Assembly: GCA_009780575.1 (NCBI GenBank)
Contig: WQZU01000010.1
Location: 1 to 41,239, forward strand
Length of the DNA: 41,239 bases
Direction: 5' to 3'
DNA from: Candidatus Methanomicula labiotermitis
GTDB taxonomy: Archaea; Thermoplasmatota; Thermoplasmata; Methanomassiliicoccales; Methanomethylophilaceae
Part shown: piece by piece, positions 3,047 through 32,437 of the stretch
How the letters are laid out: each line of letters opens with the position of its first letter
How positions within the stretch are numbered: the first letter of the stretch is position 1
The notes under the pieces: model-generated
What the model was told of the DNA's origin: nothing
The model's database searches: none
What the model saw: the letters and a program-made list of their open reading frames with translations, nothing else
Translations under genes and position numbers: made by a program

Positions 3047-4300
3047 TCACGGACGGAGGTCACGCGATTTCGAAGCGCATTCTTTTGCTTTATCTGCCAT
3101 CCCCGCGGCGCCGTATGATCTTGCGAGCAACGCATATATCTTTCTTTTTCCCTCGTCTCCGGTGACGCCCAGCGCCTTCGTGAGATAGTTTATCGAAGAA
3201 TCGTGATCGCCGGATACGGCGGCAACGTCCGCCATCTGTATGTATATGCGGTCAAGGCCATTCACAGTCCCGGTCTTCACAACCGCCTCCTTCATTGAAT
3301 TCAGGAGATCCAGCGCCTCTTTCTTATTACCCAGATGTCCGATCGCGCCGGCCGCCCTGAGGTCCACTTCGAATCTGTTCGTTATGCCGACGGACCTTAT
3401 GATCGACAGCGCTTTCGTGTGGTCCCCTTTCTTCATCTCCGCATCGGCCGAATAAAGGAGGCCGAGTTCCCCGTCCATTTCCTTCAAAGCATCGATCATT
3501 GCCGCCGACGCATCGAGATCGCCGGATTCTATGGCAACGGTTATCCTGACGGGTAAGACATCAAGAACATATTTTTCCGGAATGTCCTCAAAGCCTGCGA
3601 GTATATCAAAAAGGTCATCGTTTATGTTATACAGAAGTTTCTCCTTTTCATTTACGACAAGTCTGCATGCATCCCTGATCCTTCCTGCGGATACCAGATG
3701 ATAAAGGCGCTCCTGAACATCATCCCTGTCAAGCCAATAATCGGCGGCGGCGCTGTTCCAGCTGCGTAATCGTTCATCATCCGCCACGGAAAGTATGTTC
3801 TTCTTCACCTGATCGCTCAGGATGATCATACCGTTGACATCCGTAGGTATCACCTGTTTCGCAGTCTCCGGAATGTCTGCGCGCGGAACGGGGCACCTGA
3901 GCACACAAGCCAATCCCAAAGCATCACGGTCCTCTTCATCGACCGATTTCCATATGGTGTCGGGATCACATCTTTTCATGTCGATCATTGGCATTATATC
4001 TATTCCCTCGTCCTTGGCAACCTCTTTCAAATGTTTCGCCTCTTCCAGGCCGGCCGGTGTGAGAGTGTATGATTTCCTTCTTACTTTGCCTCCTTTGATG
4101 TGGCCCTGCCTCTCATCAACTTTACCATTTTCCCTGAGCTTCTTGAGCTCTATCGAAGAATGCGCCCTCGTGATCCTCAATGAGGCGGCGATGCCGTCCT
4201 GTGTGAGGTCCCACGGTATGTTGTAACCGTCATCACACTGCGTTCCGTATCTGCTCAGGTGCAGCACGATCCTCTCGGCGATCGTAAGTTTGGTCATCAT
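3047..4300 (-). CDS. Winged-helix DNA-binding protein with C-terminal TPR-like repeats
   Basis: Predicted archaeal transcription regulator of 417 residues. The first ~90 residues look like a MarR/ArsR-type winged helix: DLTQDGIAASLRITRAHSS resembles a recognition-helix region, followed by a basic wing rich in Lys/Arg (KGGKVRRKSY) and a conserved-looking LTPAGLEEA. The region from about 190 to the end is helical with TPR-like pairs (ALSIIRSVG, EALDLLNSM, SINYLTKALG), suggesting a protein-interaction or sensing module. No effector domain with known chemistry is visible. The start is ATG-ATG at 4300/4297, about 24 bases from a TATA box shared with the divergent dtd2 gene. Its target is unknown; the divergent neighbour is one possibility. 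Confidence 0.75.
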   Translation of the reverse strand: MMTKLTIAERIVLHLSRYGTQCDDGYNIPWDLTQDGIAASLRITRAHSSIELKKLRENGKVDERQGHIKGGKVRRKSYTLTPAGLEEAKHLKEVAKDEGIDIMPMIDMKRCDPDTIWKSVDEEDRDALGLACVLRCPVPRADIPETAKQVIPTDVNGMIILSDQVKKNILSVADDERLRSWNSAAADYWLDRDDVQERLYHLVSAGRIRDACRLVVNEKEKLLYNINDDLFDILAGFEDIPEKYVLDVLPVRITVAIESGDLDASAAMIDALKEMDGELGLLYSADAEMKKGDHTKALSIIRSVGITNRFEVDLRAAGAIGHLGNKKEALDLLNSMKEAVVKTGTVNGLDRIYIQMADVAAVSGDHDSSINYLTKALGVTGDEGKRKIYALLARSYGAAGMADKAKECASKSRDLRP

Positions 4301-28120: not shown

Positions 28121-28229
28121 CATTCTCGTGCCTGAGCCATGAAAATGCACTCCGTATGTGCGATTCATCATATCCGGTTTCCGAATTGATGTAATAAACA
28201 GGAGGTAAACAACAACCATATTTTCGTTA

Positions 28230-28304
28230 TAGGTGTATTAAATAGGATTCAATAATTTGATGTAGGTGTATTTCACGATCATACGCAATTTAATATAGGT
28301 GTAT
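28230..28304 (+). repeat. Three TAGGTGTAT repeats spaced exactly 33 bp, upstream of ATPase gene 1
   Basis: The 9-base core TAGGTGTAT starts at 28230, 28263 and 28296. The flanking bases are partly conserved: copies one and three continue with AAATA and are preceded by AT. The last copy overlaps the end of the probable TATA box TTTAATATA (28289-28297), and the ATG of the ATPase gene follows at 28328. The position at the promoter suggests an operator array. Confidence 0.85.
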
Positions 28305-28327
28305 CAAATAACTTACTGGATGGCATA

Positions 28328-29671
28328 ATGATAATCTTCAGAAGAAAGATCTACGACAAGATCTCCGAATGGAAAGAACACTACGGAGGAAAGTACGCGC
28401 TCCTGATAGAAGGGGCCAGGCGCGTCGGGAAGACCACAGCGGTAAAACAGTTCGTTGAGAACGAGTACAGATCGTCCATAATAATAGATTTCTCTAAAGC
28501 CGACAAGGAGATCAAAGATCTGTTCAGACATCATGCCGAGGACCTCGATCGGTTCTTCCTGTACTTACAGCAGATGTACAAGACCGTACTGTATGAGCGC
28601 GAGAGCGCCGTCGTATTCGATGAAGTACAACTGTTCCCGCTGGCTAGACAGATGATCAAACACCTGGTCGCCGACGGACGATATGATTACATCGAAACAG
28701 GCTCGCTTCTGTCCATAAAACAGAATGTCTGTGACATACTGATCCCTTCCGAGGAGATGTCCATAAGCATGCATCCTATGGACTTCGAGGAGTTTCTGTG
28801 GGCTCAGAAGGATGAAGTGACAGTACCGCTGCTTAGAAAAGCATTCGAAGACCGCGTTCCTCTCGGCCCCGGTATGCACAAGCGCATAATGGACACGTAC
28901 AGCATCCATATGCTCGTTGGCGGCATGCCGCAATCGGTGGAGGCATATCTGGAAAAGAAAAACTTTGAAGCCGTTGAGACGGTTAAACGCATGATATTGA
29001 AACTGTATGCCGACGACACATCAAAGATCAAAATAGATCGCGGATCCAAGTCCAAACGTATTTTATTCATGATACCCTCGTTCTTATCCAAACACAAGAA
29101 GACATTCAGTCCGTCTCAGCTGAGAAAGGGTTCAAAGACCCGTGAGTACTTCGACAGCATCACATGGCTGAATGAATCAAAGATCGTGAACATGTGCTAC
29201 CGTAACAGCGATCCGAGCCCCGCTCTGAATCTTAATCTCGATGAACACACATTCAAAATATATATGGCGGACACGGGGCTGCTTATAACGGCATCATTCA
29301 ATTCTAACGTAGGGGACCGTGATGAAATCTATAGAGACATCCTGAATAACAGAATGAAGATCAACAGAGGCATGTTCTTCGAGAACATGATCGCTCAGGA
29401 ACTTGTATCAACGGGACACAGACTTGTGTTCAGTAAATTTTCTGCCGAAGATTCTGCGAACATGCAGGAAGTGGACTTCATAATTGCAGACGGAAGGAAG
29501 ATGATCCCGATCGAAGCGAAATCCGGTGTGTCGAACAGACACGCGTCCCTTGATCGTTTTATGGACAGGTTCTCTTCCGCAATGGATATAGGATACGTGG
29601 TCCACTCCAAAAACCTCAGAGCGGACGGAAACTTAGTGTATATACCCATATACATGACCATGTTCCTGTAA
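28328..29671 (+). CDS. AAA ATPase with DUF4143/PD-(D/E)XK-like C-terminus (copy 1)
   Basis: 447 residues. The AAA core has Walker A GARRVGKTT (29-37), Walker B VVFDEVQ (95-101) and a sensor-like ETGS (123-126). The C-terminal DUF4143 part contains EVDFII (from 381) and PIEAKSG (395-398 for IEAK), the D...ExK spacing of PD-(D/E)XK folds. Such proteins are common, often multicopy, in archaea and bacteria; their function is not settled. The start at 28328 has no Shine-Dalgarno but lies about 35 bases after a TATA-like box within a TAGGTGTAT array. It stands alone, back to back with the translation operon and convergent with copy 2. Confidence 0.85.
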   Translation: MIIFRRKIYDKISEWKEHYGGKYALLIEGARRVGKTTAVKQFVENEYRSSIIIDFSKADKEIKDLFRHHAEDLDRFFLYLQQMYKTVLYERESAVVFDEVQLFPLARQMIKHLVADGRYDYIETGSLLSIKQNVCDILIPSEEMSISMHPMDFEEFLWAQKDEVTVPLLRKAFEDRVPLGPGMHKRIMDTYSIHMLVGGMPQSVEAYLEKKNFEAVETVKRMILKLYADDTSKIKIDRGSKSKRILFMIPSFLSKHKKTFSPSQLRKGSKTREYFDSITWLNESKIVNMCYRNSDPSPALNLNLDEHTFKIYMADTGLLITASFNSNVGDRDEIYRDILNNRMKINRGMFFENMIAQELVSTGHRLVFSKFSAEDSANMQEVDFIIADGRKMIPIEAKSGVSNRHASLDRFMDRFSSAMDIGYVVHSKNLRADGNLVYIPIYMTMFL

Positions 29672-29866
29672 ATCGCCGCACAACCTAATTTTGTCTTAAT
29701 ATCCGAAACCGCACAGACGCGGGAGGACAGAGTTGCAATTGCACGGTCCTTCTGTCCGTATCCTTGGCAGTACAACTGTGTAAGGAACTGAAGGAATCAG
29801 GTTACGAAGTCGATGTCAACGATCTTTTGTAAGCAGATGATCTCTCAACATCAGACGATATTTGCA
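29672..29866. other. Spacer between convergent ATPase genes, with possible decayed coding sequence
   Basis: No intact gene. On the plus strand 29746-29832 reads as a short C-terminus-like peptide containing CKELKESGYEVDVNDLL before TAA, without a start or upstream domain. It may be a gene remnant or chance. Confidence 0.25.
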
Positions 29867-31135
29867 TCAGTTCTTGAGACAACCTATCGGCACATTATAT
29901 ACGCCGTCCTTGCGCCGGTATGCCTGCTCTGTGGCCGTGAGGATCATCATGAATGACGGTTTTCCCATTTTATCCATGTCAACCTTCTCCTTGAGTTTTA
30001 TAAGATTCTTTACACCTTTCTCTATCTCGTCCGCACCCATCTTTATCTCTGCGGCGCCCCATCGGCCGTCCGCTAGTTCTATTATCGCATCCACTTCCAG
30101 ACCGCTGGAATCCCTGTAATGGAACACTCTGCCGTCAAGCGCCTGCGCATACACACGGAGATCACGGATGCACAATGATTCGAACAGCAATCCGAACGTC
30201 TCGAAATCATCTATCAACCGTTCCGGCGTTGCACGGATGGCGGCGGCCGCAATACTAGGGTCGGCAAAATGCCGTTTGGAAGAACTTCTTAAAACGGTCT
30301 TGGAACGCATCGACGGGCTCCATGCCGGAAGATCCTCTGTGACAAATGTGCGTTCCAACGCATTCATGTACGTTATAAGGGTCGGCACGGAGACAATATT
30401 ATCCGCATCTCCGCTGACATCCTTCTGCAACGTTGTCATCTTTGCCTCCGTTGACACATTCCTGGCCAATGAGTGCAACAGTTTGCGGACACGCACCGGA
30501 TCCCGTTTAACACCGTCAACGCGTGAAAGGTCCGAGTCTATGATGCTTTTCAGATAATTCTGCGAATGCCGTAAAGCTATGGATCCTTCCTCTCCTATGG
30601 CTGCGGGCCATCCTCCTCTGGCCAATGCGAATGCAAGATCGTTTATTGTGAGCCTTGACATCCCTTTGATGTCCTCTCCGCCAAAAAGGGATGACAATGA
30701 GACGCTGCCGTCGGATTCCTGCGATTCGAACAGTGACATCGGTCTCATGTATATCCTTGATATGCGGCCGGTACCGGAGTGCATAGGTCTATCCTTATCA
30801 TTCGGTACTGCCGAACCCGTCAATATGAATTGCCCCCATTCACTTCCTTGGTCTATGATGAATCGTATGCCGTCCCATAGGATGGGTGCGTCTTGCCACT
30901 CGTCAATAAGGCGCGGTTTCTCCCCTTCCAGTAAAGCATTTGGGTCCGAGTCCAGCATATGAAGATAATACTTCCTCTTCTTGGTGTCCTGAAGGTACAG
31001 GACGCTGGCCGCCCGTTCTTCGGCAGTACGTGTTTTCCCACACCACTTCGGGCCTTCTATAAGCACCGCACCGGAAGATCTGAGTGTAAGGTCCAATTCC
31101 TTGTCTATGACCCTTGGCAAATATTCCCGTTTCAT
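29867..31135 (-). CDS. AAA ATPase with DUF4143/PD-(D/E)XK-like C-terminus (copy 2)
   Basis: 422 residues, same architecture as copy 1 but only distantly similar. Walker A is GPKWCGKTRT (28-37), Walker B is RLIDEWQ (75-81) and the sensor is LTGSA (105-109). The C-terminal nuclease-like block has EVDAII (from 347) and AEIKMG (EIK at 363-365). It ends AYRRKDGV...VPIGCLKN, the family's usual tail, almost identical to the remnant beside pheS. A TATA-like GATATACC about 25 bases before the ATG suggests a leaderless transcript. Four 23-bp-spaced repeats lie upstream (31188-31279). It is convergent with copy 1. Confidence 0.88.
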   Translation of the reverse strand: MKREYLPRVIDKELDLTLRSSGAVLIEGPKWCGKTRTAEERAASVLYLQDTKKRKYYLHMLDSDPNALLEGEKPRLIDEWQDAPILWDGIRFIIDQGSEWGQFILTGSAVPNDKDRPMHSGTGRISRIYMRPMSLFESQESDGSVSLSSLFGGEDIKGMSRLTINDLAFALARGGWPAAIGEEGSIALRHSQNYLKSIIDSDLSRVDGVKRDPVRVRKLLHSLARNVSTEAKMTTLQKDVSGDADNIVSVPTLITYMNALERTFVTEDLPAWSPSMRSKTVLRSSSKRHFADPSIAAAAIRATPERLIDDFETFGLLFESLCIRDLRVYAQALDGRVFHYRDSSGLEVDAIIELADGRWGAAEIKMGADEIEKGVKNLIKLKEKVDMDKMGKPSFMMILTATEQAYRRKDGVYNVPIGCLKN

Positions 31136-31187
31136 CGATAAAGAATCTTTTTATGGTATATCAATCTATTTGGATTTTGCCCATCAA

Positions 31188-31279
31188 CTTTAAGGTTTGA
31201 TGGACTTTTGCTTTAAGATTTGTAGATGTTTCACTTTAAGGTTTGATGGACTTTTGCTTTAAGATTTGTAGATATTTTA
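31188..31279 (-). repeat. Four CTTTAAG-type repeats at exact 23-bp period, upstream of ATPase gene 2
   Basis: On the plus strand CTTTAAG(G/A)TTTG starts at 31188, 31211, 31234 and 31257, always 23 bp apart. Copies one and three have GTTTGATGGA and copies two and four have ATTTGTAGAT, so the array is also two perfect 41-bp repeats (31187-31227 and 31233-31273). It begins about 50 bases upstream of the ATPase start codon on the minus strand, behind its probable TATA box. Confidence 0.9.
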
Positions 31280-31280
31280 G

Positions 31281-31320
31281 TAGAGTAAGAAGAGGGTCTC
31301 ACGACCTCCTTCTTACTCTA
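31281..31320. repeat. 40-base hairpin: 18-bp stem, 4-base loop
   Basis: TAGAGTAAGAAG (31281-31292) is the exact reverse complement of CTTCTTACTCTA (31309-31320). The stem continues through two mismatched positions to GGTC/GACC around the loop TCAC. It lies 56 bases after the end of the unrecognised minus-strand gene and immediately upstream of the repeat array of ATPase copy 2. It could be a terminator, although no T-run follows it on the minus strand, or a structured regulatory or mobile-element end. Confidence 0.7.
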
Positions 31321-31376
31321 CTCAACCGGAATAATTGTTTTTCGGAAGGAAATACCGGGCGGGCAATCTGTATATA

Positions 31377-32270
31377 TCAGCAGAACGGTTGAGCGCACAT
31401 TCGTGATTTTTCATAAAAAATGGGAGGGCGGATGCCCAGGCCGGCCTTATTCCGTCCACTGCTGCGCCAATGTGATGAATTTGGAACCGTTCTGCGCCGC
31501 ATAGACCTCATGAACTCGTTCAGCTCCTTTATGCGTGCGACTTCCGCCGCATTCTCGGCATCAACGTCACCGTATGTGATGAGCGACCAATCGACGTTCG
31601 GCCCTTTCGCCCTCGGGTCTTTGTAGCTGATCATGACCTTCGGCATCAGTTCCTTGTAGCACACGTTCCCTTCATCGTCGAAGAACGCTCCTTCCAGCCT
31701 TCTGCCGTCAGGACCGTTCAGCCTCGCCCAGTCCGCTCCGGTCGGGACGAATTTCTTCGGCGTCATATCCTTGATCCTCTTTATGGACTCCAGCGCTTTT
31801 TCGACGTCGAGTTTTCCGAAATCGTGCCTGCTGAATTCGAACATCCTGAACTGCGTCACCACACTGTCCCGGTAGGCATCCCCCATCGGCGGATCGTCGT
31901 CATCAAGAGTGAAAGGGAAGAGCCTGCGGTTCAGCTCGCCAACGTAATAAAATATCCCGCCAGAGAACTTAAGACTTTTTTTGGGATCTATCTCGCCTGC
32001 TGTATCCCTGTCATTCAGGATCATCATAAGCCGCGCCTTTCCCTTCGGTATGGTGAACGTTCTGTCATTTACGGTATAATCGCCGATGCCGAAGGGATAG
32101 GCCCTCTCGCCTTCCACTTCAAACTTTTCTTTACCGTCCGCTATGGACTTCAATATCGTCTGTTCTATCGCAGATATCACGAACTTACCATCTGGGAAAA
32201 GGTCGATAACGACCGGGAATTCTTCTCTCGTTATCCCTATGTAACAGCCGGAATGCCTCAGAAACTCCAT
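31377..32270 (-). CDS. Unrecognised protein, C-terminus probably frameshifted
   Basis: 297 residues as read; I do not recognise the family. It looks soluble, with a beta-rich N-terminal half (GCYIGITREEFPVVIDLFPD, FSGGIFYYVGELNRRLFPF) and a mixed C-terminal half rich in charged residues (PKVMISYKDPRAKGPN, VDWSLITYGDVDAENAAEV). No signal peptide or membrane segment. AGGTGCGATT precedes the ATG. After about residue 255 the reading becomes Arg/Ser-rich and poor, while another minus-strand frame gives YAAQNGSKFITLAQQWTE and a TAA at 31447-31449. A single-base shift near 31500-31520 would join the two. The gene lies between pgk and the ATPase copy 2 block. Confidence 0.6.
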   Translation of the reverse strand: MEFLRHSGCYIGITREEFPVVIDLFPDGKFVISAIEQTILKSIADGKEKFEVEGERAYPFGIGDYTVNDRTFTIPKGKARLMMILNDRDTAGEIDPKKSLKFSGGIFYYVGELNRRLFPFTLDDDDPPMGDAYRDSVVTQFRMFEFSRHDFGKLDVEKALESIKRIKDMTPKKFVPTGADWARLNGPDGRRLEGAFFDDEGNVCYKELMPKVMISYKDPRAKGPNVDWSLITYGDVDAENAAEVARIKELNEFMRSMRRRTVPNSSHWRSSGRNKAGLGIRPPIFYEKSRMCAQPFC

Positions 32271-32368
32271 AATCGCACCTGTTACGGATATTAATGCTGA
32301 TGTATTTCAACCTTGCTTCGCAGATGATGAGTTGTAAAATGTGATCTCCGGGGAGCTATCATTCACGC

Positions 32369-32437
32369 AAAAAAGAAAGAAACGTTCTGAAAATTCAGTG
32401 AGAAGCCATATTCACGGCAGTCAGAATTTTCTGAACG
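32369..32437 (-). terminator. Hairpin plus T-tract terminator of gap-pgk
   Basis: GAATTTTCTGAACG (32424-32437) and CGTTCTGAAAATTC (32383-32396) form 14-base arms with a single mismatch, 27 bases apart, straddling the pgk stop codon. On the minus strand the hairpin is followed directly by TTTCTTTCTTTTTT (32369-32382). This arrangement fits transcription termination of the gap-pgk operon. Confidence 0.55.

Follow-up and report, generated by a model that had tools for sequence, protein, structure and literature searches.

What is a strictly periodic tandem array doing immediately ahead of an ATPase gene in an archaeon? The question arises from a 41,239-nucleotide stretch of contig WQZU01000010.1 of Candidatus Methanomicula labiotermitis (Methanomassiliicoccales), here called the window. 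A putative four-unit operator array with a period of 23 base pairs (bp), delimited by repeat search and unit alignment as 2 × 46 bp on the minus strand (31187–31278), lies 52–143 bp ahead of the ATG (31135, minus strand) of a DUF4143/AAA_14 ATPase gene. This gene, copy 2 in the window (29867–31135, minus strand), was assigned by domain and PADLOC model matches to PDC-S01 and encodes the presumed binder of the array. Comparison of sequences leads us to propose, with a probability of roughly three in four, that the array serves the neighbouring ATPase as a private operator, read by the protein's own winged helix and controlling its own promoter.

Results

The exact motif CTTTAAG(G/A)TTTG occurs at 31188, 31211, 31234 and 31257, where an earlier note on this DNA had placed it. 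The stretches 31187–31227 and 31233–31273 are identical, bearing out the two perfect 41-bp repeats claimed there. The alternating A-B-A-B pattern that it described is reflected in a 46-bp self-match score of 42.5, reached by none of 99 dinucleotide shuffles (lags 12–60 scanned), and Tandem Repeats Finder likewise returned 2 × 46 bp at 97%, together with 3.5 × 23 bp. In gene orientation the unit reads A-R-T-R-A-A-A, spacer, C-A-A-A and a gene-specific hexamer, CCTTAA. The gap between array and ATG (31136–31186, minus strand) contains a TATA-like stretch, TTGATATACCATAAAA, and presumably holds the archaeal core promoter; because of this stretch the note's wording, "just upstream of the ATPase promoter", fits. 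The search for the unit elsewhere in the genome that the note had proposed gave no exact copy beyond these four in 1.37 Mb (64 contigs), so a genome-wide regulon of this unit was rejected. One-mismatch copies (10 others) were at control level (9 for the reversed pattern).

A scan for paired units at 23-bp spacing in public genomes returned seven stretches, from Bacteroidales (3), Muribaculaceae (2) and Methanomassiliicoccaceae (2). At four of these loci (L015, L016, L018 and L021) a DUF4143 ATPase follows the array directly, as it does in the window. Few genomes carry the exact motif: 3/147 of the archaeal order and 1/297 in the family of genome G151; it was not found in viral contigs, although the ATPase family occurs there. 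Seven more distant ATPases, on plasmids and phage-labelled contigs, are preceded by 23-bp repeats of other sequence, and upstream regions were therefore tested systematically. Ungapped self-matches at lags 12–60 in the 300 bp upstream of the start were compared with 99 dinucleotide shuffles. Membership of clade A required an identity to window copy 2 of 40% or more for discovery genes and 38% or more for hold-out genes. Rows removed from discovery were duplicates (44), lacked the N-terminus (10) or were short (1); those removed from the hold-out were already in discovery (218), outside clade A (9), partial (8) or short (3). This left 231 non-redundant relatives from Methanomassiliicoccales, Bacteroidales, Collinsella and faecal contigs.

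Significant upstream tandem repeats were found for 91/98 discovery genes (lag 23 in 80, 46 in 10, 24 in 1) and 121/133 hold-out genes (lag 23 in 102, 46 in 7, 24 in 9, and 14, 16 or 55 in 3). Pooled, 212 of the 231 genes have such a repeat, 199 at lag 23 or 46 and 10 at lag 24. Among controls, 4/74 regions upstream of other open reading frames (ORFs) at the same loci were positive, as were 13/154 regions downstream of the gene, into which neighbouring arrays may intrude. All eight clade-A genes of the window's own genome are preceded by repeats (five at 23, two at 46, one at 24). Copy number ranges from about 2 to 12, arrays of two or three units being common. At the lag-24 loci (10/231, e.g. 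L097) the unit anatomy is that of the 23-bp arrays, which suggests that the period can shift by one base. In clade B, the relatives of window copy 1, two duplicate rows were removed and 15/21 genes were significant, 14 of them at lag 32 or 33. More distant DUF4143 genes gave only 10/38, with mixed lags, and the rule is therefore not claimed for the whole domain family.

Alignment of 90 arrays in gene orientation gave a common anatomy: A-R-T-R-A-A-A, a loose spacer, C-A-A-A, and a hexamer at positions 18–23. The hexamer varies between genes and is kept within an array (within-array mismatch 0.118 vs 0.171 for the spacer). After correction for overall identity, the protein column best correlated with hexamer similarity was residue 251. 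In the structure model this residue opens helix 250–262, the third helix of a predicted winged helix and thus its predicted recognition helix. The code listed for residue 251 was lysine with GG, proline with TAA, aspartate with CCG, hydrophobic residues with TAT and asparagine often with CAC. It covers clade A, the 15 clade-B arrays being too few for a code of their own, and was fixed before new genes were fetched; hold-out phase was set with the hexamer masked. Thirteen of 109 hold-out arrays had a residue outside the code and were unscored. Among the other 96, 61 triplets were predicted correctly (permuted mean 27.1, maximum 43 in 2000). For hold-out proteins below 65% identity to any discovery protein the result was 31/47 (permuted 19.2, maximum 28). 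By residue class, correct predictions were 19/27 for K, 3/5 for P, 22/34 for D or E, 1/4 for Q/I/L/V and 16/26 for N.

Shared ancestry was addressed in several comparisons. Among pairs matched at 50–55% identity, position 22 agreed in 76% when residue 251 was the same vs 24% when it differed; the corresponding values were 0.30 vs 0.29 for the spacer and 0.34 vs 0.28 for positions 18–20. A tree that excluded the winged-helix columns yielded 99 independent pairs. Position 22 agreed in 47/58 of those with the same residue vs 14/41 with different residues (Fisher p = 3e-6), and the triplet was identical in 35/58 vs 1/41. The minimum number of changes on the tree at residue 251 was 19 for K, 17 for D, 9 for P and 16 for N. 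In a weighted, background-corrected matrix of 320 protein columns by 23 unit positions (199 protein–array pairs), residue 251 with positions 22 and 23 formed the two top entries. The pooled code pairs D with CCG (24/32), P with TAA (13/16), N with CAC (12/40), E with CGG (9/18) and I with TAT (4/4); the commonest triplets for K (n = 47) are GGA (16), CGG (7), GGG (5) and GGT (5).

The window protein follows the code. Its residue 251, encoded at 30383–30385 (minus strand), is proline, and the covarying unit positions 21–23 read TAA. Covariation and the hold-out code thus indicate, in statistical terms, that the repeat sequence would match the specificity of the array's own gene product. Within genomes, identical hexamers were seen in 4/275 paralogue pairs; hexamers there were not clearly more different than between genomes, a result that does not bear out selection for differing hexamers within one genome. 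The earlier note had held that nothing in the adjacent genes explains the array. This no longer stands, given that homologues of the adjacent ATPase are preceded by arrays of the same type and that the repeat covaries with its recognition helix. Its view that the array is unlikely to be neutral is upheld: it had named free variation in spacing as the sign of slippage, and relatives keep 23 bp while the sequence changes.

The copy 2 structure model, built from 10 sequences, has a mean predicted local distance difference test score of 74.5 and a predicted template modelling score of 0.67. The predicted winged helix spans residues 213–292 (30260–30499, minus strand), with helices 213–225, 233–241 and 250–262 and strands 266–269 and 287–290. 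C-terminal to it the model has a PD-(D/E)XK nuclease-type fold (residues 335–416; 29888–30133, minus strand) with conserved E347, D349, E363 and K365. Walker and nuclease residues are intact in 198–199 of 199 proteins (D349 in 199, E363 and K365 each in 198). Structure comparison gave modest similarities to Fur, PerR and MepR-type winged helices (Z 6–7) and to the McrC, Card1 and Can2 nucleases (Z 7–8). Foldseek returned no match to the model at E ≤ 0.001, and no PDB chain matched the protein by sequence.

Placement relative to the promoter was assessed in Bacteroidales. There TANNTTTG, which we take to be the −7 box, stands between array and start codon in 80/89 arrays vs 3/88 equal stretches 5' of the array. 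The array therefore lies upstream of transcription, at a fixed place ahead of its own gene's core promoter; the distance from array end to start codon has a median of 46.5 bp (90 arrays). Transcribed RNA repeats, whether CRISPR-like or a leader RNA, were disfavoured because the box is 3' of the array. The window array also lacks the features of a CRISPR, its units abutting every 23 bp and no cas gene being found among the scanned window proteins. Distances from the last CAAA to the −7 box cluster near 17, 27, 39, 49 and 60 bp. Their best period is 10.50 bp (6–20 scanned; R 0.67, n = 80). With one gene per 60% identity cluster it is 10.75 bp (R 0.82, n = 12), a value of R matched by 2/2000 jittered sets. 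Such helical phasing suggests that a bound protein acts from one fixed side of the promoter.

Flank comparison within the genus delimited a variable block (28128–32420) comprising both window ATPases, both their arrays and one ORF of no assigned family. The block is absent from 6/6 same-genus genomes with both flanks on one contig. An archaeon and Bacteroidales share the unit type, alongside proteins that are approximately 57% identical. Together, absence from relatives and a unit shared across domains indicate that gene and operator travel together, and their movement as a self-contained unit between bacteria and archaea would imply that no host factor is needed.

Neighbouring features

Copy 1, a DUF4143/AAA_14 ATPase of the other clade (28328–29671, plus strand), also matches PDC-S01 and has its own array on the plus strand (28227–28310), with TAGGTGTAT-containing units at 28227, 28260 and 28293 and a period of 33 bp. 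Both ATPases exceed the curated cut-offs for AAA_14 and DUF4143 (41.8 and 110.8 bits for copy 2; 78.1 and 76.5 bits for copy 1) and match PADLOC PDC-S01 models (E 4.5e-65 and 1.4e-98). DUF4143 gene copies are very numerous in Methanomassiliicoccales genomes (G000, G024, G057, G066 and others): the window's own 1.37-Mb genome has 23, and the count reaches 49 in G066. The 297-residue ORF within the variable block (31377–32270) had no match in Pfam, PADLOC, NCBIfam or PHROGs. Just past its stop, and abutting the copy 2 array, is a 23-bp inverted repeat (31276–31325; 87% complementary, 4-nucleotide loop), possibly the terminator of this ORF, which reads from 32270 to 31377.

A further array of 23-bp period and different sequence (TAATGTATTTTACATTAACATAA, 2.7 copies), strongly palindromic, lies at 2924–2984, between pheS (end 2826) and the 3' end of a helix-turn-helix/tetratricopeptide-repeat gene (3047–4300, minus strand); no DUF4143 gene adjoins it. 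At two other loci, genes adjoining a 23-bp array (L021 3697–5268 and L020 3107–4243) resemble those of AAA-ATPase-like/DUF1703 proteins. In L021 the array separates this gene from the DUF4143 gene, the two being divergently oriented.

Discussion

We hypothesize that the ATPase contacts the 23-bp units through its own winged helix, which is part of the DUF4143 region. The half-sites CAAA and ARTRAAA would be constant and common to the clade, and recognition of the gene-specific hexamer would fall chiefly to residue 251, which opens the recognition helix. Several copies, bound at a spacing of about two helical turns and always on one face of the DNA as seen from the core promoter, would then control transcription of their own gene. 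The favoured form is feedback repression of an ATP-dependent PD-(D/E)XK nuclease, with gene and operator transferred as one unit across bacteria and archaea. The elements of this proposal are held with differing confidence. That the array is functional is scarcely in doubt, and binding by the ATPase itself appears very likely from the covariation. Regulation of the ATPase's own promoter through the array is likely, and for repression over activation we express a mild preference.

Several observations weigh against this proposal. No significant repeat was found for 19/231 clade-A genes, and the greater conservation of the hexamer than of the spacer within arrays reached only p = 0.013. The fixed code was wrong for 35/96 hold-out arrays, performing poorly for Q/I/L/V. 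Division of the acidic class gave 19/22 correct for D and 3/12 for E, which occurs mostly with CGG or TGA; the joint D/E rule is therefore wrong for E. In an unweighted pairwise correlation restricted to pairs below 50% identity, residue 251 did not rank first (0.17 vs a null maximum of about 0.32), an analysis we consider uninformative because nearly invariant columns dominated it. The 23-bp lattice is a partial confounder of the helical phasing, and just 12 clusters are independent at 60% identity. Locus L017 shares the flanks of L015 and L018 and has the array with no gene. Finally, the structure model was built from 10 sequences and is poor in its N-terminal AAA part.

Iterons are typically spaced about two helical turns apart, 5' of a rep gene. 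The array might accordingly be an iteron-like replication or maintenance site, with the ATPase as an AAA+/winged-helix, Rep/Orc-like initiator on a mobile element and autoregulation as a side effect. Direct repeats evenly spaced at about two helical turns before the gene of a candidate initiator are shared with iteron–Rep plasmids, the copy 2 model has weak fold matches to Orc1/Cdc6, and relatives occur on plasmids and phage-labelled contigs. We nevertheless consider such a site quite improbable. The sites are chromosomal and hold a single gene; plasmid genes were not seen nearby at the loci read, nor replicon genes beside the window copy, no replication context was evident, and arrays of just two or three units are common. 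Moreover, the array keeps its position and phase with respect to a core promoter, and its presumed binder has a nuclease-type domain. Neutral slippage, or a host transcription factor site unrelated to the ATPase, is extremely improbable. Tandem duplication can make arrays of this kind, and copy number does vary; what led us to reject both possibilities is a period that stays fixed as the sequence changes with the protein, and co-occurrence across domains and covariation with the recognition helix also oppose them.

The array could also serve as a target or identity tag that marks self, the ATPase-nuclease cutting, entering or excluding DNA that carries its own array, as in homing, superinfection exclusion or copy competition. 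Intact PD-(D/E)XK residues would suit this role, as would the many paralogues with mostly different hexamers and the presence or absence of the gene at one place with the array kept (L017 vs L015 and L018). Such a tag would, however, not account for where the array sits, or how it is helically phased, with respect to the promoter, and an uncut self array would need protection. Neither the own genome nor viral contigs hold an extra exact unit, and hexamers are not clearly more different within genomes than between them. We therefore regard the tag as improbable, and favour the private, self-read operator.

Excerpts of PMC12988326 describe PDC-S01 as an ATPase fused to PD-(D/E)XK with several between-domain transfers, and rank it fourth in abundance among prokaryotic defences (9986 in archaea, 29494 in bacteria), most such defence candidates still pending validation. 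The excerpt of PMC13356809 ranks it first in frequency among single loci of rumen genomes, and that of PMC4406477 lists a Thermus DUF4143 gene among genes with changed expression. These excerpts make no mention of upstream arrays, and the account in PMC12988326, as excerpted, includes no DNA-binding code or autoregulation. A link between array and ATPase was not found in the open-licence literature, subscription journals lying outside the search. As both window ATPases match PDC-S01 models, their phage-defence role is likewise that of a candidate. Resemblance to the STAND/AAA+ ATPases SSO1545 (2FNA; residues 127–300, Z 7.1) and PAB2304 (2QEN; residues 159–301, Z 6.2) was also seen, although such Z values can reflect a common arrangement only. 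In transcription activator-like effector and zinc-finger codes, as here, one residue largely predicts a few bases. Here, in contrast, a single position of one winged helix is involved, the repetition lies in the DNA units and not in protein modules, and the code is only partly predictive.

A bolder and rather unlikely extension would make every PDC-S01/DUF4143 unit a nuclease switch that is both mobile and self-addressed, with an array that acts as promoter control and as identity tag. The modular code between residue 251 and the triplet would diversify fast, dozens of copies per cell would stay separate, and each copy might sense, count or exclude DNA bearing its own tag. For PDC-S01 the array is the first concrete handle we have found, offering a putative DNA ligand for each of many proteins, a target residue for mutation and a promoter to monitor. 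The operator would be partly predictable from protein sequence, and seems to function with core promoters of bacteria and archaea alike.
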